Positions 34,175 through 60,423 of a stretch of 64,000 nt of DNA are shown piece after piece (the stretch's first letter is position 1; every line of letters starts with the position of its first letter). The position numbers and the translations under genes are program-made. The DNA comes from a virus, in IMG/VR virus record IMGVR_UViG_3300033571_018919, positions 62,001 through 126,000 of that record. The stretch is one strand, 5' to 3'. Below the pieces are notes generated by a model that was not told where the DNA came from, made no database searches, and was given only the letters and a program-made list of their open reading frames with translations.

Positions 34175-34975
34175 ATGATAAGAGGAATTAATAATAAACC
34201 ATATTTTGATATGGAAGCATATATCGATATGGATACATTTGATACACTACAGCCAGAAATTTATCGTGGTTTTGCAGAAGCAAGAGAATTCGCCAAAGAA
34301 GGCACATGGATGACGCCAGGCTTTACATTTGAAAATATGAGTTATCAATTATCATGGAAGCCTATATATCAATCAATACAAGATTTTTTAGCATTACCCG
34401 ATGATGATCCAATTAAACAAGGTGGTATTGATCTATATCGTGACTTTGATAACTTTGAAATAAGAAATAAATTTACTAGGTATGTGAAGATGGCTATGGG
34501 AGGATACGATCCATACATCTATTATTTTTTATGGGAACAAGGCTCATGGGATGATAGAACTGCTCCTAGAAAACTAACACCAGAGGCAAAGTATTTTCCT
34601 AACGTAGTAAATTGGGTAGAAAAAATGACAGGATCAATATTTACTGATATAGGTCGTGTTATATTTTTTCACTGTGAAGCAGATGGAATCCCTTTTGAAC
34701 ACAGAGACCTAGATGCAAAAAATGGCATCAATGTTGTTAAACCTCATCGTAATGAATTTATTCACATTCGTCCTAACACAAAAAAAGCTTTTTATATTTG
34801 GGACCCTGAAAAGAAAAATAAAATTTACATTAATACTAGAGCTGCTTGGTGGAATGATACAGATTGGCACGGCGGAGAACGTATTATGGAACAAAGTTAT
34901 GCTCTAAGAATTGATGGCACATTTACAGATGAATTTCGTAAAAAATTAGGTATAAGTAATTTAGAATATTATTAA
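34175..34975 (+). CDS. 2-oxoglutarate oxygenase-like protein
   Basis: The 266-residue protein has His176-Arg-Asp178 in PFEHRDLDAKNG, a strand EFIHIRPNTKKAFYIWD, a late His232 in DTDWHGGERIM and an Arg in YALRIDG. This is the usual H-x-D...H...R order of Fe(II)/2-oxoglutarate enzymes. It stands alone between two minus-strand units and ends with a 4-nt overlap with the convergent radical SAM gene. Confidence 0.6.
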   Translation: MIRGINNKPYFDMEAYIDMDTFDTLQPEIYRGFAEAREFAKEGTWMTPGFTFENMSYQLSWKPIYQSIQDFLALPDDDPIKQGGIDLYRDFDNFEIRNKFTRYVKMAMGGYDPYIYYFLWEQGSWDDRTAPRKLTPEAKYFPNVVNWVEKMTGSIFTDIGRVIFFHCEADGIPFEHRDLDAKNGINVVKPHRNEFIHIRPNTKKAFYIWDPEKKNKIYINTRAAWWNDTDWHGGERIMEQSYALRIDGTFTDEFRKKLGISNLEYY

Positions 34976-36096
34976 AATTTGTCAATAAGATCCGGAACCA
35001 TATCAAACAAATCTAATTTTCTTTCTTCGGCTAGTCTTAAAGAATTTATTTGAAAAGCCTTCCATTTTTCATCTGACGATTCTTTTTTATAAAGATATTT
35101 TATACTATCATCAAACGGATTACTATTTTTAGCCCAAATACCAGTAACAGAATCTCTCCAAATTTTTAATTTTTTCTCAAGACCCTTTTTATACTCATTT
35201 GGAATAATTGATATTTCTTGCCAATTTGGATTATTTAAAAAATCAAAATCAAATACTATATTTGGAAATTTATGCTTCATTTCAACAACAAAGTCTCCTA
35301 AGGTCCATATATTATAGCAATTTATAACAGTATGGCACATCAAAATTATATTGGGAAAGTTCTCCCATCTTTCGTAGTATTTTCGAATATTGTTTTCTAC
35401 TGTTTTATTATCTGTAGGCCATCTATACCACTCATTTACTGATCCTAAACCATCAACGCTTAAAAAATAATGAACAGCTTTGCATTTTTCTAATAATGTT
35501 AATAATTTGTCATTTGGAAAAATAGTACAATTTGTTGTTAATGTAAAGGTTAAATTTTCTAATTTTGTTTTTTCTAATAAAGATATACACTTATCTTGTT
35601 CTAATAATGGTTCTCCTCCTACAATTTTTAACACACTCAATTTTTGTAAATCTAATTGTGCGTAATTAAAATTTGTTGATACTTTTTGAGGTTGTATCAA
35701 TATTCTTTTGTGTTTAAAATCTTCAGCACCCCATTTAGATGAAAGTTGTGAATCACAATGCACACATGCAAGATTGCATGTATTACTGAATCCGATATCT
35801 AAAAATTCTAATTGGACATCTTTTGGTTCTTTAAACCATTCAAGAAACATTTTTCTATTACTAGTAGATCCTAATTTTTCTGAGTTATAGCATTTTTGAC
35901 AGCCCTCAATCGGCCGTCCCTCTAACATATTTTTTCTAATATTTTCCCAACTCTCACTATTTAAAAAATCTATTTTGACGGTTGATTCTTTTAAAAATTT
36001 TTCATTTGGAGAAAAACTACAACATGGTCGTACAGAATCATCTGGAAAAACTGCTGCTGCCAACCACGGCGCTGTACAAATAGTAGAGTTAGTCAT
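34972..36096 (-). CDS. Radical SAM protein with N-terminal SPASM/twitch-type domain
   Basis: The 374-residue protein has the radical SAM motif CNLACVHC (Cys107, 111, 114). In front of it is a cysteine set C7...C25-C26...C66-x2-C69 (TAPWLAAAV, RPCCSF, GCQKCY), which matches the N-terminal twitch/SPASM-like domain of a family seen in phages and bacteria, an order reversed from classical SPASM enzymes. It contains LKIVGGEPLLEQ (GGEP SAM-binding motif). The substrate is unknown. The start overlaps the upstream SDR gene by 4 nt. Confidence 0.85.
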   Translation of the reverse strand: MTNSTICTAPWLAAAVFPDDSVRPCCSFSPNEKFLKESTVKIDFLNSESWENIRKNMLEGRPIEGCQKCYNSEKLGSTSNRKMFLEWFKEPKDVQLEFLDIGFSNTCNLACVHCDSQLSSKWGAEDFKHKRILIQPQKVSTNFNYAQLDLQKLSVLKIVGGEPLLEQDKCISLLEKTKLENLTFTLTTNCTIFPNDKLLTLLEKCKAVHYFLSVDGLGSVNEWYRWPTDNKTVENNIRKYYERWENFPNIILMCHTVINCYNIWTLGDFVVEMKHKFPNIVFDFDFLNNPNWQEISIIPNEYKKGLEKKLKIWRDSVTGIWAKNSNPFDDSIKYLYKKESSDEKWKAFQINSLRLAEERKLDLFDMVPDLIDKF

Positions 36097-36650
36097 GTAG
36101 TTTGATAAGATTTTTCAGCAAAGTTTTTTAACTCTAGGGTTTCTTTTAAAGTAAATTCAATCGAAAATATTTTTGGTATTTTTAACCACAAATCAATAAC
36201 ATCATTTATTTCACTAAAAGTGGTAATATATTTTGAATCTACTTTAATTGGCAAGGTTGCATTTTCGCAAAAGGATAATTTTAGGTATAATATATTGCAT
36301 ACGTTTTTATCTGAATTCTTAGATAATTTTTTACACTGGTTTTCTAATTGTAACTTATTTTCATATTCAATATCTAATCGGGAATAATCAGCACTTACTG
36401 ATCCTAATACTATCATATTACCTACCTGTGTATAAAGACTATTTAACAAATTAAGCTGTCCATTTTTACTACAAGCACAGTTTACAAATATGTCACACTG
36501 ATTAGCTTGGTCTATTATTTTATCGAAATCATTATTGATATCATATCCATTTGATCTTGACATTCCTTTGACTTCAAATCCCTTAGAGATAAAATGATTG
36601 TATATTGATTTTCCTATTCCATTTGTATGCCCTGTAACAATGCATTTCAT
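36093..36650 (-). CDS. Short-chain dehydrogenase/reductase-like protein
   Basis: This 185-residue protein starts with the NAD(P)-binding CIVTGHTNGIGKSIYNHF, followed by DIFVNCAC (NNAG-like) and LGSVSADYS (catalytic Ser). The usual YxxxK is seen as YENK, one residue short, and the protein is shorter than typical SDRs, so activity is uncertain. It is placed between an aminotransferase and a radical SAM gene in one operon. Confidence 0.6.
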   Translation of the reverse strand: MKCIVTGHTNGIGKSIYNHFISKGFEVKGMSRSNGYDINNDFDKIIDQANQCDIFVNCACSKNGQLNLLNSLYTQVGNMIVLGSVSADYSRLDIEYENKLQLENQCKKLSKNSDKNVCNILYLKLSFCENATLPIKVDSKYITTFSEINDVIDLWLKIPKIFSIEFTLKETLELKNFAEKSYQTT

Positions 36651-36651
36651 A

Positions 36652-37839
36652 TTAAATATCCTTTAAGGAATTAAATACACGGTCTGATAATGTCTGAAAA
36701 TATTCATCATCAGCAATAGTTGGAGCAACTAAACTTATGTTTTTTGCTTCTAACGCCCATCCACCTAATCCGGTTATACCATTTTCTAAAAATTTATTAA
36801 CATCAATTTTTTTAATAGTATTCGCATAAAAAATTAAACCTTCACAATAAAATTTTTCTATCCAACCTTTTTTGACTAGAGAATTACCAAAATCTTTTAA
36901 GTTTGACTCTATTTCTATAATTTTATTTGTATCAAATAAATCTAATACTCCTAACGCTGCCCCAACACCTGCCATATTTGGTTGCCAAGTATGGCTGTAA
37001 TAATGACTATTTTTTATAACTTCGGCAATCTTTTGATTTGTACATGCGCAACTAAGAGGACTAAATCCTCCTGTAAAGGCTTTACCTAATACTGTAATGT
37101 CAGGCTGTATATTAAATTTTTTGAAACTAAAGTATTCTCCTAATTTTCCTACCCCGCCCATTACATCGTCTAGTATTAAATTTATTTGATATTGATTACA
37201 TATTTGTTTTAGAGTTATATGAAAATTCTGACTCCATGGCATTATTCCATTTAACCATGGAATAGATTCATATATAATCGCACCAATATTAGGATTTAAA
37301 ATAATCTGATCTACTACTTGCTTTAATAAATTACTTTCTTGTTCTTCTCTGCTTATTTCATTTTGCCAATTAGGTGCATCAAGAACAATAAATTTATCCA
37401 TATATTCTTCTTTTCTCATTGCACGTTCAATGTAGGTAGTTCCATGCCAACCAGGGGAAAAACATATCACTTTATTTTTGTTTACACCTAAATTTCTCCA
37501 ATAAGTATCATTCATAGCAATAGCACATTCAACTCCATCGCTTCCGCTTACTGCCCAAGCAAGCGCAGAATAATCACCTTCAGTACATATCTTTTCAATT
37601 ATTTCATTATTTTCTTTGCAATATTCATTTGGTTTACAGTGAACGTAGGCAATTTTGTCTTGTAATTCTCTCATACGTTGCTTGATGTGAGTGTTATCAA
37701 ATCCAAAAATAAATGCTGTGTTGCCCATGTGAGCATCTAGTAGTTTACCAATGCTGGTGTGAACATAATATTTTTCAGTTTTGTAAACTTCTATTTGTTG
37801 TTTTTCTGTAAGAGGAATGGTTAGTTCTTGAAAATTCAT
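36652..37839 (-). CDS. Class III PLP-dependent aminotransferase
   Basis: The 395-residue protein has GNTAFIFGFDN near residue 45, WAVSGSDGVECAIAMN (PLP phosphate site), CFSPGWHGTT, LILDDVMGGVGK (Asp binding the PLP ring nitrogen, about residues 224-225) and the Schiff-base Lys253 in TVLGKAFTGGFSPLS. It resembles glutamate-1-semialdehyde aminomutase-like and related sugar/acyl aminotransferases. It likely transfers or moves an amino group on an intermediate of the island pathway. Confidence 0.85.
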   Translation of the reverse strand: MNFQELTIPLTEKQQIEVYKTEKYYVHTSIGKLLDAHMGNTAFIFGFDNTHIKQRMRELQDKIAYVHCKPNEYCKENNEIIEKICTEGDYSALAWAVSGSDGVECAIAMNDTYWRNLGVNKNKVICFSPGWHGTTYIERAMRKEEYMDKFIVLDAPNWQNEISREEQESNLLKQVVDQIILNPNIGAIIYESIPWLNGIMPWSQNFHITLKQICNQYQINLILDDVMGGVGKLGEYFSFKKFNIQPDITVLGKAFTGGFSPLSCACTNQKIAEVIKNSHYYSHTWQPNMAGVGAALGVLDLFDTNKIIEIESNLKDFGNSLVKKGWIEKFYCEGLIFYANTIKKIDVNKFLENGITGLGGWALEAKNISLVAPTIADDEYFQTLSDRVFNSLKDI

Positions 37840-39305
37840 TTTTTCAGCTTTTCTATCTTGTAGTTTAAAATTAGTTTTTGTCGCTTTTCATTAAAAGCCT
37901 CAATAATTTCTTGATTGTAATTTCTTTCAATTACATCTTTTGCGCTCATTCCCGAAGCAACAAATTCCATAAATTCATATTTGCCAGAATTTCTATACTC
38001 TACCCAGTGAGTTTCTTTTCGTGCTTCTGCAACCTCATTGTTTAGTTTACTAGCTAACTGCACAGCATCGGAAAAGTTCATTAGATCGTTTGTCCAAAAT
38101 CCATAAATACTATTTGGTATTACTTGTAAGGTGTATCCATGTTTACTATACTCTCTGTCAAATTCGCTCATTCTTGTCATAACATTGGTTCTTATTATTA
38201 ATGGAAAAAAGGTCCAACGGTTAAAATATTGATCATTTTGATTCAAAAACCATTCATGAGTTTTTTGTATATCTTCAGCAGTTTCATGTGGTAAACCAAC
38301 AATTAATCCTGTATGAGTCCAAATATCTGCCTTCTCTTTTAATGTTTTTATGGCCTCTAGTTGTTTATTTAAGTCACCTGCTTTTCCTATAATTTTTCTT
38401 GTCTTATCTTTCAAACTTTCTATTCCAAAACTGGTTGAGATGAGACCAGTCTCAACAAGTATGTCAATCATCTCAGGATATCTTGCTAATAAGTCTGCTC
38501 GTAAAAATGCAGAATACTTAATTTTTACGTTACTTTTTTGAATTGCATTTGCTACTGACTCAAGTTTAACTATGTTATCATTAAAGGTATCATCTTGAAA
38601 TGAATAGGTTGTAACGCCATACATTTCATAATTTCTTTTTAATTCATCGGCTAAATTTTCTTCATACCTAATGTAATCGTTTTTCTTTTTACCCAATAAA
38701 GGATATTGGCAATATTTACATTTAAAAATACATCCTCTGCTTATCTCAATAGGTAAAACACAAGCATCAACCAAATCAGATTTTTGCCATTCAATGGTTA
38801 AATCTGTATCATCGTTCTTGTAAGATTTTTCAGCATCTATTGCAACAGTGCCTTTATATTCTACCCAATTTAGATTATCTAAACGTTTTTTGGTTAGATA
38901 ATCTAGGTAGTGTGATATAGCTTCTTCAGCGTATCCCCAAATTATTCTGTCAACATATTTGGTTTCTAAAAAATTATCATCACCCTGAGATAGGGTAGTT
39001 TCAGTACCGCCAATCACAGTTTTGACATGAGGGTATTTTTCTTTTATAGTTTTAAATAAAAAATTAACTTTGTTAAACTTATTAAAAAAAGTAATACTTA
39101 CACCCACAAATAGTGTTTTGTCTCCGATGTATTTTTCGAGTAATTGCTCAATTTCATTTTCAGTAAACTTGCTAAAAAAATCTATAACTTCTACCTCATA
39201 GTTTTTTTTCTTTAACCAAGTACGTATTCTGAATGCTCCGGCTGGTCTCAATATTAAATCGTCATCAGCCATACCAGTAAATATTAGTCCGTGATATAGG
39301 CTCAT
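37836..39305 (-). CDS. Radical SAM protein with N-terminal B12-binding-like domain
   Basis: The 489-residue protein has an N-terminal Rossmann-like region (residues 1-150: AFRIRTWLKKKNYEVEVIDF, LFVGVSITFF, KTVIGGTE) as in cobalamin-binding radical SAM enzymes, then CIFKCKYC (Cys192, 196, 199) and an elongator-type TIM barrel (IKYSAFLRADLL, GLISTSFGIESL). It could be a methylase or ring-forming enzyme, as B12 radical SAM enzymes are. The start overlaps the next upstream gene by 4 nt. Confidence 0.85.
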   Translation of the reverse strand: MSLYHGLIFTGMADDDLILRPAGAFRIRTWLKKKNYEVEVIDFFSKFTENEIEQLLEKYIGDKTLFVGVSITFFNKFNKVNFLFKTIKEKYPHVKTVIGGTETTLSQGDDNFLETKYVDRIIWGYAEEAISHYLDYLTKKRLDNLNWVEYKGTVAIDAEKSYKNDDTDLTIEWQKSDLVDACVLPIEISRGCIFKCKYCQYPLLGKKKNDYIRYEENLADELKRNYEMYGVTTYSFQDDTFNDNIVKLESVANAIQKSNVKIKYSAFLRADLLARYPEMIDILVETGLISTSFGIESLKDKTRKIIGKAGDLNKQLEAIKTLKEKADIWTHTGLIVGLPHETAEDIQKTHEWFLNQNDQYFNRWTFFPLIIRTNVMTRMSEFDREYSKHGYTLQVIPNSIYGFWTNDLMNFSDAVQLASKLNNEVAEARKETHWVEYRNSGKYEFMEFVASGMSAKDVIERNYNQEIIEAFNEKRQKLILNYKIEKLKK

Positions 39306-40396
39306 CGTTTAAAAAATATTCCCTGATTGTCACTAACTAATTTTTGTCCTTGCCACCAACCTTTTTTCCAACCATCTCTTAATATTGCTTGTATTAAAAA
39401 AGTGCCACGGGTGTTTGGAATAAAAGATGCCCAAGGACCCATGTACATGTAACTTGTATCAACCGAATTTACATCTGCCCAATGAATTACTTGTATAAGG
39501 CTTTTTTCTAAAACAGTGCCGATATGATAAGGGTTACTACCATAATTAGGATGTCTGTGATAGCTTAAATTCTTTTCTTTAGCAATTTCTGAAATCCAAT
39601 CATAAATTTCGCTTGCGAATATTTCTCTTTCTCTTTCAAATTCCACACCTATCATTGCCGGCGATCTAATACAGTAGTTAGTAGCTTGTATACCTTTTTC
39701 TTCTATCCAAAGAATCTTGTCAATTGCATGTCTTACTTGTTCTCTACTTTCTACTGTGAATGATACTTGTGCTAATGCTATGCCTTCTTCAATTACATTC
39801 GTGAGTGCAGATGACACGTTTTTCCAAACCTTTTCTGAATGATACTCTGGATGATGAATACTCATGCATACGCTTGAAAGTTTGACTTTTGCTAATTCTT
39901 TTACGTAATCTTTATTTTGTAATTTTACTCCATTGGTGTATACAGTAACAAGCTTGTGAGATTTACCGTAGGGAATACTTTGTATCTTTGCTATAAGTTC
40001 AGGTAAATCTTTTCTCATGGTTGGTTCTGCTCCTGCAAGACAAACAACCTGACCAGGTGCAGCCTTGGCAGTGGTTACTATCCACTCTAATGATTTATCT
40101 TGTAAAGTGTTATCAGGGTCGTGATAGCAATGTTTACACTGAACATTGCATTTATCGGTAACTTCTATAGTCGATACATTATTGTAAATATCCCAACATG
40201 GATTATCAGGATCTTTTTGCGTTATACTATCCCAAAATTCATATGATTTTTCAACCATTGCCTCTTGATATCCATGCGAAGGGCAGGTTTTGGTAATATA
40301 GGCTGAACCGTCAGTTCTATATTCAATTTGAGCTGGTAGTTCTCTATAACATACTTTACACAATCCGGTAGTAAAGTAAGAATTTACTAATTCCAT
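39302..40396 (-). CDS. Radical SAM protein, Tes/MJ0619-like architecture
   Basis: This 364-residue protein begins with a Cys-rich rubredoxin-like segment (C13-x2-C16, ELPAQIEYRTDGSAYITK, C38-P-S-H-G), then CNVQCKHC (Cys83, 87, 90) and VVCLAGAEPTMRKDLPEL. The N-terminal pattern recalls tetraether lipid synthase and MJ0619-type pterin methylating enzymes. A close paralogue lies at 41959, with the cysteines at identical residue numbers. The substrate is unknown. Confidence 0.8.
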   Translation of the reverse strand: MELVNSYFTTGLCKVCYRELPAQIEYRTDGSAYITKTCPSHGYQEAMVEKSYEFWDSITQKDPDNPCWDIYNNVSTIEVTDKCNVQCKHCYHDPDNTLQDKSLEWIVTTAKAAPGQVVCLAGAEPTMRKDLPELIAKIQSIPYGKSHKLVTVYTNGVKLQNKDYVKELAKVKLSSVCMSIHHPEYHSEKVWKNVSSALTNVIEEGIALAQVSFTVESREQVRHAIDKILWIEEKGIQATNYCIRSPAMIGVEFEREREIFASEIYDWISEIAKEKNLSYHRHPNYGSNPYHIGTVLEKSLIQVIHWADVNSVDTSYMYMGPWASFIPNTRGTFLIQAILRDGWKKGWWQGQKLVSDNQGIFFKR

Positions 40397-40409
40397 AATT
40401 TTTCCTAAA

Positions 40410-41039
40410 CTATTTTGTTCCGTAAAACCACAAGAAAGTCAAATCTTTTCCAGTATTTTTGACTTCAAATGTGATGTTTTTAAATCCAATTTCTTCAAAT
40501 ATTAATTTGTATTTTTCTACAGAAGTATGAAAAACTGGTAATGGATAACCAAGATATTCAAAATAATTTTCAAATTCTTCATGTCCTGTAAATTCCTTAC
40601 ATCCTAAAGTTACGTATACAGGCATGTTATGTTTTACCATTTTATAAAACAATTTAAATGATATAATTTGTTTTTCCATAGGCAAATGCATGATTGAGTA
40701 AAAACAAGTTATTAAATCAAATGTGTTTTCAGGAAAGGATAATTCACAGGTATCACACAAAACAGTTTTGGCATTCGGAGCGTGTTTATTTACATATTGT
40801 AATGCTTCACCTGCAATATCAGATCCAGTGACTTCGTGCCCTAAATCATGAAAAAATTTAATTACAGGATATCCAGTCCCGCACCCCGCATCTAAGACTT
40901 TACTTGTTTTTGGTAATTTTGCAGCTAGCCCTTCTAATTGCTCTGTGTTATTAAAGTAAGTGTCTCTTTCAATGTCATGAAAAGATGAAAATTTATTATA
41001 TACACTTGATAGTTCATCGGTTATCTGAAGGTAATTCAT
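40410..41039 (-). CDS. Class I SAM-dependent methyltransferase
   Basis: The 209-residue protein has SKVLDAGCGTGYPVIKFFHD (motif I), EVTGSDIAGEALQYV (motif II) and DLITCFYSIMHLP (motif IV). It is the first gene of a minus-strand operon that ends at 34972, with an AATAAATA late box 5 nt before its ATG. It may methylate a product of the neighbouring radical SAM enzymes. Confidence 0.75.
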   Translation of the reverse strand: MNYLQITDELSSVYNKFSSFHDIERDTYFNNTEQLEGLAAKLPKTSKVLDAGCGTGYPVIKFFHDLGHEVTGSDIAGEALQYVNKHAPNAKTVLCDTCELSFPENTFDLITCFYSIMHLPMEKQIISFKLFYKMVKHNMPVYVTLGCKEFTGHEEFENYFEYLGYPLPVFHTSVEKYKLIFEEIGFKNITFEVKNTGKDLTFLWFYGTK

Positions 41040-41044
41040 CGTAA

Positions 41045-41071: not shown

Positions 41072-41962
41072 TTATTCTAATGTGTATTCAATTTTATAAA
41101 ATTTTAATTCTTTCAAAAATCGAGTTGAATCTACATAATCTCCCATTAAATACGATCCGGTTTTGGTCAAGTTTAAGTCTTGAAGTATTGCTGAAACAAC
41201 TAAACAAGCAGAGTAATAATATCCTGAAAATGTTTTAATTGTTAATTTTTGATTTTCTGATTGTATTATTATTTTAGAATATTCATCTCCTAAATTTATC
41301 TCATCCATTTGCATATAAAAACCTGCAGTGTTTATATTTGAAAAATTTTCTTTTGCTACTTTAAGTTCATAATTTGGAATAGGATTTACATATCCGATAT
41401 CAAATTTTTTTTGTTGGCTTGTACTAGTAGGAATCCAATTACCATCTACTAAGGTACAATCTAGAATTTGGTTGCTTTCATGTATTGTTAAGTATTCATC
41501 TATGTTTTGCTGAGATAGGTTTCTATTACTCCAACAAGTTTTAAAATGAGCTAGAATACTTAATTCATTTTCTACTTTTAACATTTGAAGAAATGGTAAA
41601 AATGAAGTTGCCCCGCAATCAAAGACATAGGTATTTTTTGAAAATTTATATTTTTCAAGAAGATTATAATTTATTTGAGCAGGAGAGTGACAATCAAAAA
41701 AACTAGTGTCAGCTTTTTCTATTTTTTTTAATAAATTTTCTTGATAGTTAATATTATTAGTGCAATTAATTACTAAATTAAAATTACTGTAACCGTCAAA
41801 ATTTTCAATCGTGTCACACACATACTCTACATTTTCTTTTGACTGCTGTTTAAGTAAATTTTCGTTTTTTCCTAATATGGTTACATTTAATCCTTTGTCA
41901 CATAGTAGTTTTAATATTTCTTTACCTAAATTTCCGTAACTACCTAGCAACAATATTTTCAT
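41072..41962 (-). CDS. Saccharopine dehydrogenase-like NAD(P)-binding protein
   Basis: The 296-residue protein begins MKILLLGSYGNLGKEILKLL, a Rossmann nucleotide-binding motif, followed by LNVTILGKNENLLKQQ, LVINCTN and a Cys-Gly strand FDCGATSFLPFLQML, the general order in saccharopine dehydrogenase-like reductases. It overlaps the Tes-like paralogue by 4 nt and is the last gene of the operon from 48247. The role is probably oxidation or reduction of an amino- or keto-compound. Confidence 0.6.
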   Translation of the reverse strand: MKILLLGSYGNLGKEILKLLCDKGLNVTILGKNENLLKQQSKENVEYVCDTIENFDGYSNFNLVINCTNNINYQENLLKKIEKADTSFFDCHSPAQINYNLLEKYKFSKNTYVFDCGATSFLPFLQMLKVENELSILAHFKTCWSNRNLSQQNIDEYLTIHESNQILDCTLVDGNWIPTSTSQQKKFDIGYVNPIPNYELKVAKENFSNINTAGFYMQMDEINLGDEYSKIIIQSENQKLTIKTFSGYYYSACLVVSAILQDLNLTKTGSYLMGDYVDSTRFLKELKFYKIEYTLE

Positions 41963-43056: not shown

Positions 43057-43613
43057 TATTGTTCCTTAATAATTCCAAAAAAATTGAATAGATATTTAGG
43101 TTTAAATCCGCAGTTTATGCCGCCATGCCAATTAGTTCTTGATGGCCACTTGTAAACTGCACCTTGGTCTTGAAAATACATACAATGATCTTCTATCATT
43201 ACTGCATGTCCTACAGTAGGTTTTGATATATGACATGTAAATCTAGCTGTATTTAGTGTTTCATAATAAGCTTCATTATCATTGCAATCCCAATGCCATG
43301 GTGTCATGTAACCAGGATTAATTCTACTAATCCAACAACTTAATGGATCTACATTTACGTAATCAGCAAATATAGTGACAATTTTTTCATCAAAGTGTAC
43401 TTCGGGAAAAAACATATCCCAGCCTGCGTTACCGCCATCTTTTATAAGCTTGAAACCAGCTTCTTCCCAAAGTTTCGCCATTTCTTTTATGCCTATAATT
43501 TCATCCGTACCTTTGTGTCTAGGTCCTATGTATCCTGGTTCTTTGTTATCTAAGACAGAAATTATAGAATCCCAGTCAATTAAGTGTGAAATATTTCCAA
43601 TAAGTTCAGCCAT
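43056..43613 (-). CDS. 2-oxoglutarate oxygenase-like protein (aspartyl hydroxylase type)
   Basis: The 185-residue protein has His107-x-Asp109 in TPWHWDCND, a long strand with HAVMIEDHCMYFQDQG, and a late His163 in NWHGGINCG. It is closely similar in layout to the protein at 45081 (WISxxxPG...PWHxD...MIED...WHG..NCGFKxxYLxxFxG). It sits between radical SAM genes with 1-nt or small overlaps. Confidence 0.65.
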   Translation of the reverse strand: MAELIGNISHLIDWDSIISVLDNKEPGYIGPRHKGTDEIIGIKEMAKLWEEAGFKLIKDGGNAGWDMFFPEVHFDEKIVTIFADYVNVDPLSCWISRINPGYMTPWHWDCNDNEAYYETLNTARFTCHISKPTVGHAVMIEDHCMYFQDQGAVYKWPSRTNWHGGINCGFKPKYLFNFFGIIKEQ

Positions 43614-53480: not shown

Positions 53481-54204
53481 TACTTATAGCCCAATTTCTT
53501 TCTTTACACCAAAAACATATATCACATGTAGGTACATGTTGATTAGGTATGTATGTTTCATAAGTTATCCCTTCAAATTCACCCTCGCAACTTCTTGTTA
53601 TAGAAAATAAGTCTAATAAGTTTCTTTTTCTATATTGTTGAATTACCCAATGTTTCTCAATAAATCTAAATGGGTGTATGGCATATACATTCATGTGCTT
53701 CATTAAACGCAGGTGTTGATTAAATTCAGTAGGATCAATATCTCTTTCTTTCATCCCATCAAAGTTTTTATTTTTTGGATTTCTCGTAACACCATTATAG
53801 TAAGCACTAATTTTATTGTGATAACAAACATATTCACTATACGCACGTATTTGAATATTATCTCCGCTTACTTTTTTACCATATTCGTCCATAAGCACAG
53901 GACCAGTTGCACCATATTCAATATCCGGTGCAATAAAATTTACGTGTCTAGTCCATTCGAACGTTGGAAACTTCTTTGTTAAGTATTCATATACATTTTT
54001 TGAATCATATTCTTGCCATGGTCTAGTTTTCCACATACGAATATGACTTATGATATGAATTTTCAGATTAGGGTTTTCATTTACTGCAAGTGAACATAAT
54101 AGATATGCTAATAGCGCCGAATCGGCACCACCACTTAAACTGACAGCGATACTAGGCCATTCTTTATCATAGGGTATGTTAACGCCGTCTATGTTATATT
54201 CCAT
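53470..54204 (-). CDS. QueC-like N-type ATP-pyrophosphatase
   Basis: The 244-residue protein has the PP-loop SLSGGADSALLAYLL at residues about 22-36 and a C-terminal zinc-type set TRSCEGEF...TCDICFWCKERNW (C, then CxxCxxC) as in 7-cyano-7-deazaguanine synthase (QueC). QueC makes preQ0 from carboxy-deazaguanine; other N-type enzymes activate carboxylates for amidation. QueD, QueE and FolE are not seen in the window, so the substrate may differ or come from the host. Confidence 0.7.
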   Translation of the reverse strand: MEYNIDGVNIPYDKEWPSIAVSLSGGADSALLAYLLCSLAVNENPNLKIHIISHIRMWKTRPWQEYDSKNVYEYLTKKFPTFEWTRHVNFIAPDIEYGATGPVLMDEYGKKVSGDNIQIRAYSEYVCYHNKISAYYNGVTRNPKNKNFDGMKERDIDPTEFNQHLRLMKHMNVYAIHPFRFIEKHWVIQQYRKRNLLDLFSITRSCEGEFEGITYETYIPNQHVPTCDICFWCKERNWAISNAM

Positions 54205-55048
54205 TTTCTTCTAAATAACGAATTAAAGGTGAAACACCGACTGGCATGCCATTTTTTAATGCTAAATAAATGCTTTTTGTTTCAGTTAAATTAAAGTCCT
54301 TGCAAATTGTCTTATATCTATGTTCATGAGTATTCCAAAGGTAATCAGGTACTAGCTCATCTAAAAAATATGAACCAATCATTACTAATGCCTTATTATT
54401 CATATGGAAATCGTTCATTATTGTAATACTATCGCTATCTTCATTTGACCATCGTAAACCTATTCTGTTCCAACCTAACCCTAATCCTTTACTTAAACTA
54501 ATACCCACCGATTTAATATTTGGGTGATTAAAATCAAATTCTATGTCAGTACATGTTGTAACCCATGCTCCGTCGATATGTACATCAATTTTTTTCTCTG
54601 CACACTCACTGAGTATATCCTGCATATTATTATGTATAGATCCTATTTGTGGAAATGGCATAGCGATAATTAAAGGCACACCATGTATTAAATTTTTTGG
54701 GGTAACAAGGTATGATAAGTTTAATCTACTGTGGTATCTGTAGTCATCAACTAGTGTTTGTACCCGATGGTGCATATAAATGTTATCGATAAATTGAGTG
54801 CATCCGTTAATAATATCTATACGGTTAAATTTTTTCAATCCATATAACGAATTACGTTTAGATTCTGATAACCAATTTACAAATCGAAACTTAAATCTAT
54901 TATAAACCTCATTACTAATGTCTTTGTCCAAACATCCATGCAACACTTGTTGTATTAGAGTGTCAATTTTTTTATCTGTAAGTGGTTGTGGTCTTTCTAT
55001 TTCTAAATACTTACTATCATAATCGGGTGCAATTTTAATTCTATCCAC
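54194..55048 (-). CDS. Short PLP-enzyme-like protein (fold type I)
   Basis: This 284-residue protein starts at GTG 55048. It has IDVHIDGAWVTTCTD (Asp159) and VGISLSKGLGLGWNRIGLRW (Lys187), the Asp and Schiff-base Lys layout of fold-type I aminotransferases/decarboxylases. It is about 100 residues shorter than usual, so either a minimal or truncated enzyme. The late box AGTAAATA ends 4 nt before its start. Confidence 0.5.
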   Translation of the reverse strand: MDRIKIAPDYDSKYLEIERPQPLTDKKIDTLIQQVLHGCLDKDISNEVYNRFKFRFVNWLSESKRNSLYGLKKFNRIDIINGCTQFIDNIYMHHRVQTLVDDYRYHSRLNLSYLVTPKNLIHGVPLIIAMPFPQIGSIHNNMQDILSECAEKKIDVHIDGAWVTTCTDIEFDFNHPNIKSVGISLSKGLGLGWNRIGLRWSNEDSDSITIMNDFHMNNKALVMIGSYFLDELVPDYLWNTHEHRYKTICKDFNLTETKSIYLALKNGMPVGVSPLIRYLEENGI

Positions 55049-55052
55049 TGAC

Positions 55053-55067: not shown

Positions 55068-55071
55068 TTTC

Positions 55072-55740
55072 ATGCTTTCAAAATTGACTCTTTCTGTAGA
55101 CGTAGATAGTTTAGTAAAACAAGTTAGTGAACTTAATTTTGGTAAAAGTTTATCCATTAATTATACCACAGGAAAATTACTTAATGGTCCTTATCTAACG
55201 AAACCCGAATTTCTAAATACTCCTTTAGGAAATATTTTACAATCTATTGAAAATGTAGGTGAAGCTAGATTATTAAAACTAGAAAGTGGAGAATCTTATA
55301 CTGCACATTCTGACCCAGATGATAGAATACATGTTCCTATCATAACCAATCTATATTCTTATATTATGGATTTGGACAACAATAAAATGTATCATTTGCC
55401 TGCTGATGGATCAGTGTGGTATATGGACACAAGTGTTACACATGTGGCAGCAAACTTTGGAGGTAGAACTAGAATACATTTAAACATTCGAGTGCTACTT
55501 CCTAAATTTAAATCCCCTGGCTACAAATTAACTGTTACAGGAGGCGATTATGATTGGAAACAGGAAGCATATTTTACCTTAATGACTTTTTTTAATAAAT
55601 CTATTAAAGAAAGAATTATTACAGGATTTGAAAAGGTAAACGAAAGAGAAGTTTTATTAAATTGTGATCCAATCGTGCTTAATCCTTACATAAAAAAATT
55701 AGAAGATAAAGGGTTTAGTATATCTTTAAGCGCCACATAA
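55072..55740 (+). CDS. 2-oxoglutarate oxygenase-like protein (aspartyl hydroxylase type)
   Basis: This 222-residue protein has His79-x-Asp81 in YTAHSDPDDR, a late His124 in TSVTHVAANFGG and Arg134 in RTRIHLNIRVLL, the Fe(II)/2-oxoglutarate set of aspartyl/asparaginyl hydroxylase-like proteins. The following radical SAM start is directly adjacent to its stop. Confidence 0.7.
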   Translation: MLSKLTLSVDVDSLVKQVSELNFGKSLSINYTTGKLLNGPYLTKPEFLNTPLGNILQSIENVGEARLLKLESGESYTAHSDPDDRIHVPIITNLYSYIMDLDNNKMYHLPADGSVWYMDTSVTHVAANFGGRTRIHLNIRVLLPKFKSPGYKLTVTGGDYDWKQEAYFTLMTFFNKSIKERIITGFEKVNEREVLLNCDPIVLNPYIKKLEDKGFSISLSAT

Positions 55741-56790
55741 ATGACTTTCTACAATTCTGATTTAAAAATTTTAGATATTGAGCCATCTTCTTTTTGTAAT
55801 GCAAAATGTCCTCAATGCATGAGAGAATCACAAAATGGTTCCTATGATTTTTTTAATCAAGTGAATTTAACTGATACTTTTTTTGAGATTTTTTTTCCTA
55901 AACAAGTAGTAATAAATTTAGAAATAGTTTCATTTAGTGGAAATGTGGGGGAACCTACAATGAATAAACATTTGATTGATATTATCAGGTGGTTTAGAAA
56001 ACAAAACCCTAAAATTTATGTAGAAGTATACACGAACGGCAGCGTACAGAAACCAAAGTTTTGGAGCGAATTAGGAGAAGTTATTGGACATAATGGTAAT
56101 GTGATATTTGCCATCGATGGACTAGAGGATACTAATCATATATACCGTATTGGAGTTAAATGGAACCTGCTAATGCAAAATGCAAAAGCATATATAGAAT
56201 CTGGAGCGAAGGCAACATGGCAGTTTATACCTTTTCTACACAACGAGCATCAAGTTGAGTTAGCTAAACAATTAAGTGCAGAAATGGGATTCGATAAATT
56301 TAAAATTAAAATATCACATAGAGATTTATTAAATCAACAGCAAAATGAAAAAACTAGAGTCTATCCACCAAAAAATCCTATGTATACACATAGCGGAAAT
56401 AAACTAGATTTTACTAATCTTGATGTTACTGAAAACTATTTAAATAGTCTAGATATTAAATGTTATGCCATAGAAAATAGTAACTTATATATTTCTGCTG
56501 AAGGTTTAGTGTTCCCTTGTTGTCACACGGCTAGCATTATACTTTTAGATGATAATATGGTACCTGAACCGTATAGTTGGATTAGGAAAACAAAAAGTCA
56601 ATTTAATCTTAATGAAATTAATTTACATAACAATACTCTAGAACAAATTTTAAAATCAGTTACCTTTAATGAAATTAAAGAGTCATGGAACAAAGACATT
56701 AGCGTAGGAAAAAATGCAATATGTGCAGCGATTTGCGGCAAATGTAAAAATAACAAAAGTCTTATAGAAAATCTATTGCACCATGAATAA
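55741..56790 (+). CDS. Radical SAM protein with C-terminal SPASM-like cysteines
   Basis: The 349-residue protein has CNAKCPQC (Cys19, 23, 26), VSFSGNVGEPTMNKH (SAM-binding, G-x-GEP), and a C-terminal region with KCYAIENSNLYISAEGLVF, PCCHTAS and ICGKCKNN, as in SPASM auxiliary-cluster domains. It is the partner in design to the protein at 57705. Overlap of 8 nt with the next gene. Confidence 0.87.
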   Translation: MTFYNSDLKILDIEPSSFCNAKCPQCMRESQNGSYDFFNQVNLTDTFFEIFFPKQVVINLEIVSFSGNVGEPTMNKHLIDIIRWFRKQNPKIYVEVYTNGSVQKPKFWSELGEVIGHNGNVIFAIDGLEDTNHIYRIGVKWNLLMQNAKAYIESGAKATWQFIPFLHNEHQVELAKQLSAEMGFDKFKIKISHRDLLNQQQNEKTRVYPPKNPMYTHSGNKLDFTNLDVTENYLNSLDIKCYAIENSNLYISAEGLVFPCCHTASIILLDDNMVPEPYSWIRKTKSQFNLNEINLHNNTLEQILKSVTFNEIKESWNKDISVGKNAICAAICGKCKNNKSLIENLLHHE

Positions 56791-57721
56791 ACTAATAAAA
56801 ATAGAAATAGCTAATCCTAATGCATTGCGTATTAATTTTGTAATGACACGTAGTTGCACCTACGAATGTAGATATTGTCCGGATGATCTACATTACGGTA
56901 CACATAGAGATATAAACTTAAATGATTTAAAACTGTTTCTTAGTAGATTTACGGATAGAAATACGGCCGTTCAATTGACAGGTGGTGAATGCACTACTCA
57001 TCCACAATTTGAGGAAGTTATAAAATTAATTAAAGACTTTAATTATAATGTACTAGTGGATTCTAACAGTGTTAGGACATTGCGCTTCTACGATGAAGTA
57101 AAACATTTAGTAGATAATTGGTGCATAACATTACATCCTAGTCAACATAAATTAGATTTAGAAAAATTAAAATTATTATCACAACATTCTTTTCTAGTGA
57201 TTTATGTTATGATGGATCCTAATTATTGGGAGATATCATTAGACTGGTTTGATCAAATATCAAAATTAAAAGATTTAAAAGTAACACCAATCCGAGTTAT
57301 GAACAATTGGGGAGGTGCAAATTTTCACGCTAATTACAGTGACGAACAATTAGAGTATTTGTCAAAGGCAGAATCTAAATGGCTTTTTACTGTTGAACGA
57401 GAAACAGAATTAAGAAAAACTCACATGTGGTTAGCGGATACAGAATCTATAGCAACAGACACTACTGGAAACAGGGTTACACTAGATCCATTTAAAATGA
57501 TACGCACAGGCACAAACAATTTTTATGGTTGGCAGTGTAAAGCCGGTAATGAATCAATATGCATATTTGATGACGGCAAAGCCATATGGGCAAATTGTGG
57601 GATTAAAAAATTTAACCATTACTTAGAGTTGACTCCTGAAATAATGGCTGAACCACTGAAATGTAATTTTTTAGCTTGTTCATGTGCTACTGATATTCGA
57701 GCCTCTAAGTCAAAGAATTAG
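56783..57721 (+). CDS. Radical SAM protein (GWxC-type)
   Basis: The 312-residue protein has CTYECRYC (Cys25, 29, 32), VQLTGGECTTHPQF (here GGEC instead of GGEP) and the C-terminal GWQCKAGNESICIFDDG, ANCGIKK and FLACSCAT. It ends with a 17-nt convergent overlap with the minus-strand radical SAM gene. Confidence 0.87.
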   Translation: MNKLIKIEIANPNALRINFVMTRSCTYECRYCPDDLHYGTHRDINLNDLKLFLSRFTDRNTAVQLTGGECTTHPQFEEVIKLIKDFNYNVLVDSNSVRTLRFYDEVKHLVDNWCITLHPSQHKLDLEKLKLLSQHSFLVIYVMMDPNYWEISLDWFDQISKLKDLKVTPIRVMNNWGGANFHANYSDEQLEYLSKAESKWLFTVERETELRKTHMWLADTESIATDTTGNRVTLDPFKMIRTGTNNFYGWQCKAGNESICIFDDGKAIWANCGIKKFNHYLELTPEIMAEPLKCNFLACSCATDIRASKSKN

Positions 57722-58790
57722 TTTCTATCCACTGATCATTGGGTTGACTTATATCTACATTTTTAAATTCACCGCATACTCTGGCACAGGTAATTAATTT
57801 TTCTTCATTCCATTTTTTGTGCCAAATATTTTGCCAAATTTCAGAATCAATCACATTTTTTATTCCGTTTAGTGCATTAAGTTTTTCTACACCACCAAAA
57901 TCTTCAATTAGTTTAGTGTATTGATTTTTTATATCTTCGCTTACATTATGATTGATATATTCAGGATCATAGTATGTATAGGGTATGGAACTTACCCAAC
58001 AACAAGGAAGTATGGTTTTGTATGCGTCAATGTAGATTTCTTTAAGATTTAAAACATGGCAGTTAATTTTTGCCTCAGCTATAAGTTGTTTATAAGAATT
58101 AATTACCTCTTTTGGCATAAACTTAATAGTAGTTTCAGTTGGGGGTTCAATTGTATGTGTATAGTTTCCTTCTTTATCTACAACATCGTATTTTGGTTCT
58201 ACTAAAAAGCGTGAACTATTTTTTACAACAAATTTTGAGAAACCTAAACTTTTGGCTACTACCCTACATTCTTCTGTTTGATGCTCATTGTGTTTAAATT
58301 TTATAAATGTCCATTCGGCGATTCCCCCTGCATCAATAAAAGCTTTTGCATTTTTTATTACAGTATTGTAATTAGTGCCTATCCTATATAATGAATGCGT
58401 ATCAACTAATCCGTCAAGTGCGAAATGAACACAGTGATCTACAGGAAGTGCCTTAGCTAAATCTATCCACCATGACGGCTTTCTAGCTCCGCCATTGGTG
58501 TGTATGGCAATTCGTACATTTGGATTCACATGTTTGATGTACACACACATTTCTATTAGGTCATCATGCAGCATAGGATCACCAAAATTGCCGCAAAAAT
58601 ATATACATCGGACTAAGTTTAAAATTTCAGGAGAGATGATCTTTTTAAACTCAATTAGTGTCCACTGAGTTAATTTTAAATATGGATTAGGCAACCCACC
58701 GTGATGATTTCTGGCACACATGGGGCACCTTGCCTGACAATTATTAGTTAGCTCTATGTGAATAGATTTTAATTCATTAAATTTAAACAT
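57705..58790 (-). CDS. Radical SAM protein with C-terminal SPASM-like cysteines
   Basis: The 361-residue protein has CQARCPMC (Cys18, 22, 25), IYFCGNFGDPMLHDDL and a C-terminal set with INCHVLNLKEIYIDAYK, PCCWVSS and CARVCGEFK. It is similar in design to the protein at 55741, but on the other strand. Last gene of the operon from 61969. Confidence 0.87.
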   Translation of the reverse strand: MFKFNELKSIHIELTNNCQARCPMCARNHHGGLPNPYLKLTQWTLIEFKKIISPEILNLVRCIYFCGNFGDPMLHDDLIEMCVYIKHVNPNVRIAIHTNGGARKPSWWIDLAKALPVDHCVHFALDGLVDTHSLYRIGTNYNTVIKNAKAFIDAGGIAEWTFIKFKHNEHQTEECRVVAKSLGFSKFVVKNSSRFLVEPKYDVVDKEGNYTHTIEPPTETTIKFMPKEVINSYKQLIAEAKINCHVLNLKEIYIDAYKTILPCCWVSSIPYTYYDPEYINHNVSEDIKNQYTKLIEDFGGVEKLNALNGIKNVIDSEIWQNIWHKKWNEEKLITCARVCGEFKNVDISQPNDQWIETNSLT

Positions 58791-59409
58791 TCGCCTTTCC
58801 TATAATCATGTATCTGTCATACAATGGCAATTCAAGTTTTTTTGCATTATAAACATGTAGTTTGCATTGATCTATAAAATGAGTTAAACTATTGGCAATT
58901 CGTATGTGTTCATCAATTTTGTAATTATTACTTTGTACTACAATCAAACTATTGTGCGGTAAACAAGTTAACCATGTATCATATTGTTCTTGTGTAATGT
59001 GTTCACAACTAGTGTTGATAATAATATCTGCATTACTGTGAATTGCACACATATCCGATGTAATTGCTGTAAATCTTCCTTGCATTTCTTCTTTTTTATT
59101 CATAGTTCTAGCTATTTCTTCACAACTAGGATCTATATCGATGGTACGAATATACTTAATAGAAATTTTACTTTGAAAAAGAAAACTAGCAAGAGTGCCG
59201 ACCCACCCGCCGTGTATGTCAATACTGACAGGAAAATTTAAACTTTTATCTTGTTCTGAACTGATAAAACTTTCTAAAGTTTCAATTAACCACTCTTTGC
59301 TTTGTATCTGTCCTCGCCAAAAGGCGTCTAGTGTACGTTTGGGGTCTTTGCTCTCACGAATGGCACACATCCAATAATGCAAGTGTTCAGTGTCTATATT
59401 CATGTTCAA
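58783..59409 (-). CDS. Methyltransferase-like protein
   Basis: The 208-residue protein has VSIDIHGGWVGTLASFL (motif I-like), YIRTIDIDPSCEEIAR (acidic SAM-binding residue) and ADIIINTSCEHITQEQYD, compatible with a class I methyltransferase. It overlaps the radical SAM gene at 57705 by 8 nt and follows the one at 59410 directly. Confidence 0.55.
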   Translation of the reverse strand: MNMNIDTEHLHYWMCAIRESKDPKRTLDAFWRGQIQSKEWLIETLESFISSEQDKSLNFPVSIDIHGGWVGTLASFLFQSKISIKYIRTIDIDPSCEEIARTMNKKEEMQGRFTAITSDMCAIHSNADIIINTSCEHITQEQYDTWLTCLPHNSLIVVQSNNYKIDEHIRIANSLTHFIDQCKLHVYNAKKLELPLYDRYMIIGKANV

Positions 59410-60423
59410 CTATTCTGTTAACTTGCATTTTGGTATTTTGCTATCTGCCGAACTCACACAGCTAGGGGTTATACACTTTTTTGGCGAGCCAAATAATTTA
59501 AAACCATCAGTTAATGTTCCTAATGGTTGGTCGTGGCAACTATAACTTCTTTTAATTTCATCTCCCCGTATTATAACACTTTGATACCCTGAATTGCAAT
59601 ACCAACCTTTAAAATTATTAAAACCAAAAGAATTAAATCTTTCTGCTTGGTCAAACAAGTACTCATTGTTGTCTTGGTCATACAAGCTTATTTGATATAT
59701 TTCTTGCTCCTTTGCCTTTTGGGGGAACCCATTTTGCATTATTGCAATCATTTCGTTTGTGTATCCATCTACAATTGCACTGGCGGTGTCGTTACTCTGT
59801 GGCTTTAGTGTGACATTGATTCCTTTATCATGAAATCTATTACACCTATCATACAACTCATAAAATTGATCTGGTACCATAACTTGATTAATGGTTACGT
59901 GAACATTTTCTCCCATTAAGAATAAACATTTTTCTGCAAATTCATTTTCATTCGCAAACTCACTATGATAACTTGCAGTAATTGATTTGCGTTGAAATAG
60001 TTCAGTAGACATGCACCAATTTCCCCACCATTTTTTGCTTGGACTTAAATTAGTAGTCATGTGTATACTTTGGTATGGGGTGATACCATCTTCAAGGTAT
60101 TTTAATAAAGATAATAAATGTTTATAAGCAGTTGGTTCTCCGCCACTAAAGGACCAATGAAATTTATTAAATCTATTTTGCCTTGCTTGAGTTTTTATTG
60201 AATCTATTGTTTGAATGTATTTTTGAAAATCCGAATAGTCAGGCGTTTGGCTATTAGCATAAGGCCAACAATAGCTGCACTTATAATTACAGAACCTACC
60301 AAGAATCCAACTAATATTAAAGACATCATCTTTTATTAAAGTTTGTTGACCAAATTTTACTATTTTCTCAAATGGAATTTTTGTAAAATCGATCATACTG
60401 TTCTTTGAGCCAGTCGTAGTCAT
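59410..60423 (-). CDS. Radical SAM protein (GWxC-type)
   Basis: The 337-residue protein has CNYKCSYC (Cys45, 49, 52), FHWSFSGGEPTAYKHLL and the C-terminal GWYCNSGYQSVIIRGDE, SYSCHDQPLG and ITPSCVSSAD. It overlaps the glycosyltransferase-like gene by 56 nt from its first ATG; an ATG at residue 10 would still overlap. Third of its class in the window. Confidence 0.87.
   Translation of the reverse strand: MTTTGSKNSMIDFTKIPFEKIVKFGQQTLIKDDVFNISWILGRFCNYKCSYCWPYANSQTPDYSDFQKYIQTIDSIKTQARQNRFNKFHWSFSGGEPTAYKHLLSLLKYLEDGITPYQSIHMTTNLSPSKKWWGNWCMSTELFQRKSITASYHSEFANENEFAEKCLFLMGENVHVTINQVMVPDQFYELYDRCNRFHDKGINVTLKPQSNDTASAIVDGYTNEMIAIMQNGFPQKAKEQEIYQISLYDQDNNEYLFDQAERFNSFGFNNFKGWYCNSGYQSVIIRGDEIKRSYSCHDQPLGTLTDGFKLFGSPKKCITPSCVSSADSKIPKCKLTE

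Follow-up and report, generated by a model that had tools for sequence, protein, structure and literature searches.

Radical SAM genes of the island

The window analysed here, a 64,000-nucleotide stretch of viral DNA, corresponds to positions 62001-126000 of the 127,168-bp IMG/VR record IMGVR_UViG_3300033571_018919 and carries a dense island of genes for radical S-adenosylmethionine (rSAM) enzymes. Scanning the whole record with PF04055 returned 13 matches, every one over the curated cut-off, free of internal stops and within window positions 34972-60423. A preliminary description of the window had placed thirteen rSAM genes with a CxxxCxxC motif in this interval, and this was borne out: the reading frames of all 13 were located there, and the motif, present in 13/13 products, is missing from all 32 non-rSAM proteins of the window that were checked. 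When the 13 sequences were shuffled at constant composition, a mean of 0.07 of 13 contained it.

The five designs into which these proteins had been sorted were all recovered as homology groups by blastp within the island, while the domain matches expected of each design were complete for some groups and partial for others. The group with N-terminal twitch cysteines comprises R1 (34972-36096, minus strand; PF04055 37.3 bits), R7 (48279-49673, plus) and R9 (52218-53480, minus), which score 225, 382 and 340 bits, respectively, against a cut-off of 170 for NF033640 (N_Twi_rSAM); the Pfam SPASM domain is over its cut-off only in R9. R3 (39302-40396, minus) and R4 (41959-43056, minus), which match PF04055 and are 53% identical to each other, both carry the HMPTM/Tes-type zinc ribbon PF23545 (43.1 and 36.2 versus a cut-off of 27), and score 68 and 78 for the tetraether synthase family NF045702, below its cut-off of 450. 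A GWxC C-terminus is seen in all three members of a third group, R8 (50396-51304, minus; PF04055 54.8), R11 (56783-57721, plus; 31.7) and R13 (59410-60423, minus; 40). The B12-binding domain PF02310 (cut-off 32.1) could be confirmed in two of the three proteins assigned to the B12-type design, namely R2 (37836-39305, minus; PF04055 83, B12-binding 35.5) and, barely, R6 (45592-47595, minus; 32.5), but not in R5 (43606-45084, minus; PF04055 53.3, B12-binding 19.7), which is classed as B12-type through its similarity to R2. R6 is KedN5-like, with a score of 141 for NF033712 against a cut-off of 700. Likewise, a C-terminal SPASM domain is over cut-off in R10 (55741-56790, plus; PF04055 31.2, SPASM 23.2 versus 21.5), while R12 (57705-58790, minus; PF04055 38.6) has SPASM-like C-terminal cysteines only.

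The rSAM and auxiliary cysteines of R7, R12 and R13 are kept between phage and bacterial homologues in alignments, and those of R7 are invariant across 18 aligned sequences, one of them bacterial. The nearest relatives in the PDB, Tes and BlsE for R12 and the anaerobic sulfatase maturase for R13, are related at the superfamily level and were not used to assign function.

The record is extended on both sides by a second IMG/VR contig, IMGVR_UViG_3300032322_001765 (G001; 220,867 bp), with a 100% match for the three proteins searched. G001 contains 17 rSAM places, the 13 of the island and four more at 14.8-19.4 kb, about 134 kb away. The description of a single phage island thus holds for the 13 clustered genes and falls short of the four distant ones. 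A 25.4-kb stretch of G001 holds 13 of the 17 places, a density matched by none of 20,000 random placements. Two of the four additional proteins were scanned against NCBIfam and exceed the NF033640 cut-off (343 and 332). In this second cluster (L122:8178-19777) a single gene separates the rSAM genes from a carbamoyltransferase gene. We also observed that two of its four rSAM proteins have an unusual N-terminal Cys...HPP pattern and that a 793-residue protein lacking a Pfam match and a protein read as tetratricopeptide-repeat-like are encoded nearby.

A core of the island is co-inherited in related phages

Viral contigs were searched with R3, R7 and a QueC-like protein of the island, which retained 4, 37 and 80 (of 181) loci, respectively, on 107 distinct contigs, and 45 window proteins then served for comparison with the open reading frames (ORFs) of the loci. 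The counts that follow are in several cases limited by 10-kb flanks, and best-match labels among the twitch paralogues are approximate. In all 46 QueC-anchored loci of at least 20 kb, R12, R9, R8, R7 and the Asp-hydroxylase-type protein have a match at E 1e-5. Removal of identical signatures left 38 loci, in which, at an identity of at least 40%, the QueC-like anchor, R9, R8 and R7 are each found in 38/38, R12 in 36, mt58 in 32, R13 and 2OG-34 in 28 each, plp54 in 26, kin32 in 22, asph55 in 10, gt60 in 7 and u47 in 4. Among the 11 dereplicated R7-anchored loci (17 before dereplication), R12 is present at any identity in 11, R8 in 10, R13 and R9 in 9 each, mt58 in 8, plp54 in 7, QueC-like and 2OG-34 in 6 each, and gt60 in 5.

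The commonest neighbour pairs join these genes into two strings, plp54>QueC>R9>R8 and gt60>R13>mt58>R12>R7. As the QueC-like gene occurs in only 6 of the 11 R7-anchored loci, the string that contains it is an extension rather than a universal component. The B12-type and Tes-like rSAM genes are accessory: among the 46 QueC-anchored loci R6 was found in 3, R5 in 8, R2 in 9, R3 in 11, R4 in 1 and the methyltransferase gene mt40 in none. Most of the R5-R13 block is retained in the relatives L006 and L067/L073, at 45-85% identity. The preliminary description had taken scattered inheritance in related phages as an outcome that would count against a single pathway; the core genes are instead inherited together, while the accessory genes come and go. 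Because R9, R8 and R7 occur in 38/38 dereplicated QueC-anchored loci and in two recurring strings, a chance pile-up does not account for the island, and the rSAM clustering is strongly non-random and a piece of a wider system.

PF04055 matches number 3-17 per genome, with a median of 10, in 48 IMG/VR relatives (50 records including phages K566 and CP21); these relatives were a chosen set, and the range is no estimate for phages at large. One of them, G019, has 17 rSAM matches on 57.7 kb, and directly before its gt60-mt58-R12-R7 genes (L037:998-6814) lie genes matching Ribul_P_3_epim, SIS, APS_kinase/AAA and carbamoyltransferase families over cut-off, together with a cytidylyltransferase-like gene just below it (20.8 versus 21). 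Amidinotransferase-like and sulfotransferase-like families, named by reading, recur in 9 loci each. The accessory families read as SGNH, amidinotransferase, sulfotransferase and a 424-residue glycosyltransferase-like protein had no Pfam match over cut-off.

Partner proteins of the core

The QueC-like protein (53470-54204, minus) is a predicted PP-loop ATPase with a four-cysteine site, and its SGGxDS motif (SGGADS) and cysteines C206, C227, C230 and C233 are invariant in 31/31 aligned sequences. Structure prediction, which had been proposed as a check of the island, was carried out for this protein and for domain 2 of gt60. The QueC-like model (predicted local distance difference test, pLDDT, 91.9) has a QueC/Cap9/TilS-like fold: Cap9 is its top Foldseek match (E 1.1e-6), and the best VIA match is QueC 3bl5 (Z 14.9, 171 residues aligned, 3.1 A), tied with TilS 1ni5 (Z 14.0). 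The sequence matched no Pfam family at E 0.01, the PHROG QueC-like family at only 18.9 bits (E 0.001) and, in NCBIfam, solely TilS (22.3 versus a cut-off of 93.6). The protein thus looks like a QueC/TilS-type PP-loop ATPase yet cannot be filed as QueC, and the label it was first given is supported by motif and predicted fold but not by a family match.

The gene gt60 (60368-61969, minus) encodes a two-domain protein of which domain 2 was modelled (pLDDT 91.9). The model has a glycosyltransferase type A (GT-A)-like fold with a DxD-type motif, its best Foldseek match is SunS (E 8.5e-5), and of the 50 Foldseek rows listed only two are not glycosyltransferases; the Pfam GT2 score of the domain is 18.8 versus a cut-off of 27. 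The remaining partners were assigned largely by reading motifs. They are plp54 (54194-55048, minus), a small enzyme resembling pyridoxal phosphate (PLP) fold type I, with SLSKGLGLGWNR and with Lys187 and Asp159 invariant in 31 aligned sequences; mt58 (58783-59409, minus), a methyltransferase-like protein of a conserved family that has no Pfam match; and 2OG-34 (34175-34975, plus), a conserved putative 2-oxoglutarate (2OG) oxygenase lacking a Pfam match, in which His176, Asp178 and His232 are invariant in 27 aligned sequences. Searches of PDB sequences returned no match for plp54, 2OG-34, gt60 domain 2 or R7, and chance-level matches only for mt58 and the QueC-like protein. The Asp/Asn hydroxylase-type 2OG oxygenase (55072-55740, plus) is over the cut-off of PF05118 (27.4 versus 22.6).

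Other genes of the island and the surrounding phage genome

Several accessory genes lie between the rSAM genes, most of them on the minus strand. After R1 come a short protein resembling the short-chain dehydrogenase/reductase (SDR) family (36093-36650, minus; adh_short 17.6 and the NCBIfam SDR matches all below cut-off) and a class-III, PLP-dependent aminotransferase (36652-37839, minus; PF00202 131 bits, equivalog cut-offs unreached). The SAM methyltransferase mt40 (40410-41039, minus; Methyltransf_25 60.9 bits) and a protein read as reductase-like (41072-41962, minus; weak matches below cut-off) separate R3 from R4. R5 is flanked by two putative 2OG-Fe(II) oxygenases, read from motifs and lacking a Pfam match (43056-43613 and 45081-45599, both minus), which are 36% identical; a further one (33628-34134, minus), also a motif reading, is 19% identical to the first. 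Proteins resembling the kinase fold are encoded at 32955-33638 (kin32, minus), whose profile A4 matches the protein kinase TTK in the PDB (E 6.4e-5), and at 47588-48247 (minus), a paralogue with 22% identity. Beside R8 lie an SGNH-hydrolase-like protein (49627-50403, minus; motif reading, no Pfam match) and a sporadic protein (51301-52221, minus) found in 10 of 46 loci and lacking any Pfam, NCBIfam or PHROG match.

Just left of the island stand genes for the iron-sulfur (Fe-S) scaffold IscU (29101-29481, plus; TIGR01999 equivalog, 218.8 versus 192.4) and for an IscA-like A-type Fe-S carrier (29614-29979, plus; TIGR00049 92.4 versus 58.8; IscA equivalog 127 versus 150.6). An FkbM methyltransferase (30000-30872, plus; TIGR01444 79.3 versus 37.7) and a GSCFA-family protein (32075-32977, plus; PF08885 138.7) follow, and both lie outside 34972-60423. 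IscU is present in 12 of 31 IMG/VR relatives searched and in 8 of the 11 records of at least 100 kb, which fits a need to load many Fe-S enzymes; the phage IscU probably supports the rSAM enzymes. That Fe-S enzymes of viruses are served by assembly proteins from the virus itself is an idea put forward in the available text of PMC5332604.

G001 encodes the T4 major capsid protein gp23 over cut-off (E 1.2e-99), which marks it as a T4-like phage. With virion genes on the same contig and the same block in relatives, an artefactual host fragment was ruled out as the origin of the island. A single gene at window positions 64-13641 encodes 4525 residues, with dozens of RCC1 repeats and, after them, laminin-G/ConA-like lectin domains; the product is probably a giant adhesin or tail fibre. 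The ribonucleotide reductase genes at 21372 and 24349 match aerobic-class PHROGs, from which an aerobic host may be presumed. Seven tRNA genes occupy about 1 kb on the right-hand side of the island (62752-63760).

Bacterial homologues

Scanning genome contigs with the QueC-like protein identified two relatives, one on a contig of a Chloroflexi metagenome-assembled genome (L132; contig C1 of G053, PAAV01000055.1) and one on a Bdellovibrionia chromosome contig (L133). The 161-kb Chloroflexi contig carries T4 gp23 (E 8.6e-140) and two groups of rSAM genes; as gp23 lies on the same contig, we regard it as probably a misbinned T4-like phage. Consistent with this, an R13 profile matches 1 of 301 genomes of the Chloroflexi phylum, the gp23-bearing one. 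On L133, the QueC-like gene (26% identity) is found together with R9-like (30%), R6-like (27%), 2OG-34-like (23%) and R10/R12-type (28%) genes, and is flanked at L133:7575-11278 by genes read as CysN-, CysD-, CysC- and sulfotransferase-like. These sulfate-activation-like genes hint at a sulfated product there.

Among 143 genomes of the class Bdellovibrionia, the R13 profile matches 15 (best E below 1e-140 in each) and the QueC profile 3, all among the 15; R13 of the window is 46-52% identical to its homologues in this class. Of the 15 R13 neighbourhoods, 11 contain both R12- and R7-like genes and one has an R12-like gene alone; the other three lack both, two of them being on contigs shorter than 6 kb. 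Genes like gt60 occur in 5 of the neighbourhoods and mt58-like genes in 6. In a tree of R13, 29 phage rows including the window form one clade (100/100) that contains none of the 15 bacterial rows, while the phage rows L050, L072 and L082 are distant paralogues and L030, L032 and L034 were entered twice. A recent capture from Bdellovibrionota is thus not supported, and the phage-only clade speaks for long residence in phages. R13 may have been transferred long ago in either direction, the tree giving no resolved branching between the bacterial rows and the phage clade.

Two further bacterial arrangements were observed. A Bdellovibrionia chromosome (L134-L136; G054:C1:745-775 kb) carries another cluster, with a dozen or more mostly twitch-type rSAM genes, a gene read as amidinotransferase-like and a plp54-like gene. 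In two bacterial genomes, open frames of 26-residue aromatic/basic repeats (L174:6-842, L172:10823-11275) lie beside a homologue of mt58; the repeat is tandem by TRF in L174 and by reading in L172, and is possibly a repetitive substrate peptide or merely a DNA repeat.

A candidate glycan pathway and competing explanations

The preliminary description had read the island as a phage-borne biosynthetic pathway for a complex molecule. Co-inheritance of the core in relatives supports a biosynthetic or tailoring pathway well, with the variability of the accessory genes as the part that fits less neatly. In our estimate the chances are about even that the island is a phage-borne, rSAM-centred pathway for making or tailoring an unusual glycan or glycoconjugate. 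We favour a glycan because a GT-A-like protein lies in the second string (gt60-R13-mt58-R12-R7), because in G019 this string follows the Rpe-, SIS-, APS-kinase/AAA-, cytidylyltransferase- and carbamoyltransferase-like genes, and because the rSAM clusters of cultured phages sit among sugar-type genes, those of CP220 and Mosig near baseplate or tail-fibre genes. The carbamoyltransferase gene near the second cluster of G001, the failure to find a small precursor peptide among the ORFs of at least 90 residues and, according to the available text of PMC7029224, the rSAM cassettes in the host recognition region of pelagimyophages point the same way.

The pathway that we infer, in its substrate, reaction order, product and target alike, would start with gt60 handling a sugar or transferring it to an acceptor. 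The central radical reactions, on the sugar itself or on a sugar-linked intermediate, would fall to R12, R13 and R7, and a methylation to mt58. In the extension found in many relatives, plp54 may add an amino group and the QueC-like protein an amide-type bond driven by ATP, with R9 and R8 acting in the same string. B12-type rSAM enzymes could methylate unreactive carbons, 2OG oxygenases, methyltransferases and SGNH/GSCFA proteins could decorate the product, and clusters for the Fe-S enzymes would be supplied by the phage IscU and A-type carrier. As the target, we consider either the envelope of the host or the tail of the phage most likely.

Several observations weigh against a glycan pathway. 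Within the island itself only one glycosyltransferase gene is predicted, and a sugar-nucleotide pathway could not be recognised. For gt60 domain 2, moreover, VIA scores nucleotidyltransferases level with glycosyltransferases (Z about 10-11). The SGNH, plp54, mt58 and several of the 2OG assignments are motif readings with no Pfam match. By reading of their neighbourhoods, the bacterial copies often adjoin ordinary genes rather than a polysaccharide locus. Identity is only about 24% for the rSAM proteins of K566, CP220 and Mosig, which may represent analogues and not the same system, and IscU was not found in CP21 or K566. Finally, many SPASM/twitch rSAM enzymes of known function act on peptides.

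The best-surviving alternative is that the genes form a biosynthetic cluster in the strict sense, whose small, diffusible natural product (a toxin, signal or metallophore) is released or put to use in the course of infection; we consider it unlikely but worth keeping in view. Such a cluster would be in keeping with the relatives of rSAM methylases and cyclases of the B12 type (PhpK, KedN5 and ladderane, all below cut-off), with the two enzymes of PLP type, the QueC-like ligase, the oxygenases and the methyltransferases, and likewise with the recurrent amidinotransferase- and sulfotransferase-like families and the sulfate-activation-like genes of L133, all of them names given by reading. However, Pfam scans recognised no non-ribosomal peptide synthetase, polyketide synthase, transporter or resistance gene in the island, an exported compound would presumably be of little gain to a lytic phage, and the sugar-gene neighbours in relatives favour the glycan pathway.

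Hypermodification of a protein such as a tail fibre or host protein, by radical C-methylation, epimerisation, hydroxylation and methylation in the style of polytheonamide, appears unlikely as well. Five twitch/SPASM-type rSAM enzymes, the B12-type enzymes and the Asp/Asn-hydroxylase-type enzyme are in keeping with it, as are giant tail-fibre-like genes near the island and the repeat ORF beside mt58 in two bacterial genomes. The top Foldseek matches also lean in this direction, Cap9 being a protein-nucleobase conjugation enzyme and SunS a peptide S-glycosyltransferase. In contrast, the ORFs of at least 90 residues in this tightly packed island include no obvious candidate for a conserved small precursor peptide, and the repeat ORF is confined to the two bacterial loci, TRF having found only two short 13-bp repeats, and no counterpart of the 26-residue repeat, in window positions 14000-64000. 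A ribosomally synthesised and post-translationally modified peptide with a small precursor was set aside on the same grounds, no candidate having been recognised among these ORFs.

We give little credence to a hypermodified DNA or RNA base made by a deazaguanine-like route. The QueC-like fold, PP-loop and four-cysteine site are compatible with one, and QueD/PTPS matches occur in 9 of 22 IMG/VR relatives searched and in CP21 and K566; PTPS was, however, not found in G001 or 12 more (13 of 22 in all, on contigs that may be incomplete). Moreover, the QueC-like protein has no Pfam QueC match and is lacking from 5 of 11 R7-anchored loci, and its profile matches only 3 of the 15 Bdellovibrionia genomes with R13. 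That the rSAM proteins are defence or counter-defence proteins such as viperins is very improbable: PADLOC matches for all five proteins scanned (R7, R8, R9, R12, R13) span just part of the model, the best score of the 13 for viperin NF038283 is 47, far below the cut-off of 180, and a 13-enzyme set with glycosyltransferase, PLP and oxygenase partners is unlike single-gene viperin.

Returning to the glycan pathway, we offer a broader version of it tentatively, as one that is somewhat more apt to prove wrong than right. Large phages and Bdellovibrionota would share a self-contained rSAM cassette, consisting of a GT-A protein or methyltransferase and three dedicated rSAM enzymes, that in many phages is extended by a PLP/QueC-like amidation string and by exchangeable B12 and oxygenase modules. 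Its product would be a radical-edited sugar or glycolipid of a class new to chemistry, with which phages would remodel the surface of the infected cell or their own tail, often bringing their own Fe-S assembly proteins. As rSAM enzymes are costly and oxygen-sensitive, a lytic-type phage with 13-17 of them must gain something specific. Several types of rSAM enzyme (twitch, SPASM, B12, Tes-like) are represented in the island, and for the phage versions of these no substrate is apparently known. Through the conserved core, a loose remark in the literature, that some phages have many rSAM genes, becomes a defined system: it has a minimal cassette, homologues in bacteria and analogues in cultured phages, so that product and role become testable. 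If surface or virion sugars are indeed edited, phage-host recognition would involve a chemistry new to it, and the enzymes could be drawn on for editing the C-C and C-H bonds of sugars.

Comparison with known systems

The QueC-like protein shares the PP-loop SGGxDS motif and four cysteines with the QueC family (QueC, Cap9, QatC), which its predicted fold resembles; the main text of a 2026 paper on this family (PMC13329287) does not contain the terms 'radical SAM' or 'phage genomes'. It differs from the family in its lack of a Pfam match, in a TilS fold within 1 Z unit of QueC and in its rSAM and PLP gene neighbours. Polytheonamide-type pathways bring together B12 rSAM C-methylases, other rSAM enzymes, a 2OG hydroxylase and methyltransferases. 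In the island, by contrast, no precursor peptide was found among the ORFs of at least 90 residues, and GT-A-like and QueC-like core proteins are present instead.

Cultured phages provide distant matches only. A megablast search of window positions 28000-36500 against GenBank phages gave no match, and tblastn against 50,697 phage records (E 1e-5) gave none for R3, QueC-like, gt60, 2OG-34 or mt58, three records for R7 at about 25% identity and, at about 24%, two for R13 and four for R12. The phages concerned infect Campylobacter, Vibrio and Pelagibacter, and in them the matches lie amid glycosyltransferase or sugar genes; Vibrio phage K566 has a GT8 gene among its rSAM genes. The Campylobacter phages CP220, CPt10 and CP21 (Firehammervirus) are, like the phage of the window, T4-related and carry 11-12 rSAM genes, which have no known function according to the available text of PMC2853527, with baseplate genes nearby. 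That text gives 11 rSAM proteins for CP220, 12 for CPt10 and an interchangeable module of five, and we found 11 PF04055 matches in CP21. The CP220 module includes two genes noted as nucleotide-diphospho-sugar transferases, an amidinotransferase and a PAP2 phosphatase. These phages differ in having only the distant R12 and R13 matches and none for the QueC-like protein, gt60, 2OG-34 or mt58.

Pelagimyophages have a variable host recognition cluster in which genomes differ by rSAM cassettes (PMC7029224, available text). Genes for rSAM proteins or annotated as MoaA occur there with tail fibres, carbamoyltransferase, hydroxylases and sugar- or lipopolysaccharide-type genes. In Pelagibacter phage Mosig (MT647606.1), a carbamoyltransferase, an annotated UDP-Ara4N-type aminotransferase, an epimerase, hydroxylases and tail fibres surround three MoaA-annotated genes, just one of which matches R12, distantly. 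The Tara T4-like genome TARA_ERS488813_N000010 contains 12 rSAM genes and Fe-S assembly genes; in its description, as far as the available text of PMC5332604 goes, Fe-S genes are listed and no core, partners or bacterial versions are defined. Similarly, the 261 instances of viral rSAM/SPASM genes annotated ahbD in the Baltic Sea, whose function is called speculative, are annotated singly as heme synthase in the available text of PMC9301287, with no island or partners there. A literature search, with most subscription papers and bioRxiv outside its scope, found no paper that defines the core, the bacterial cassette or the product. Phages rich in rSAM genes are already in print, and what appears new here is the conserved core of the system and its bacterial cassette.

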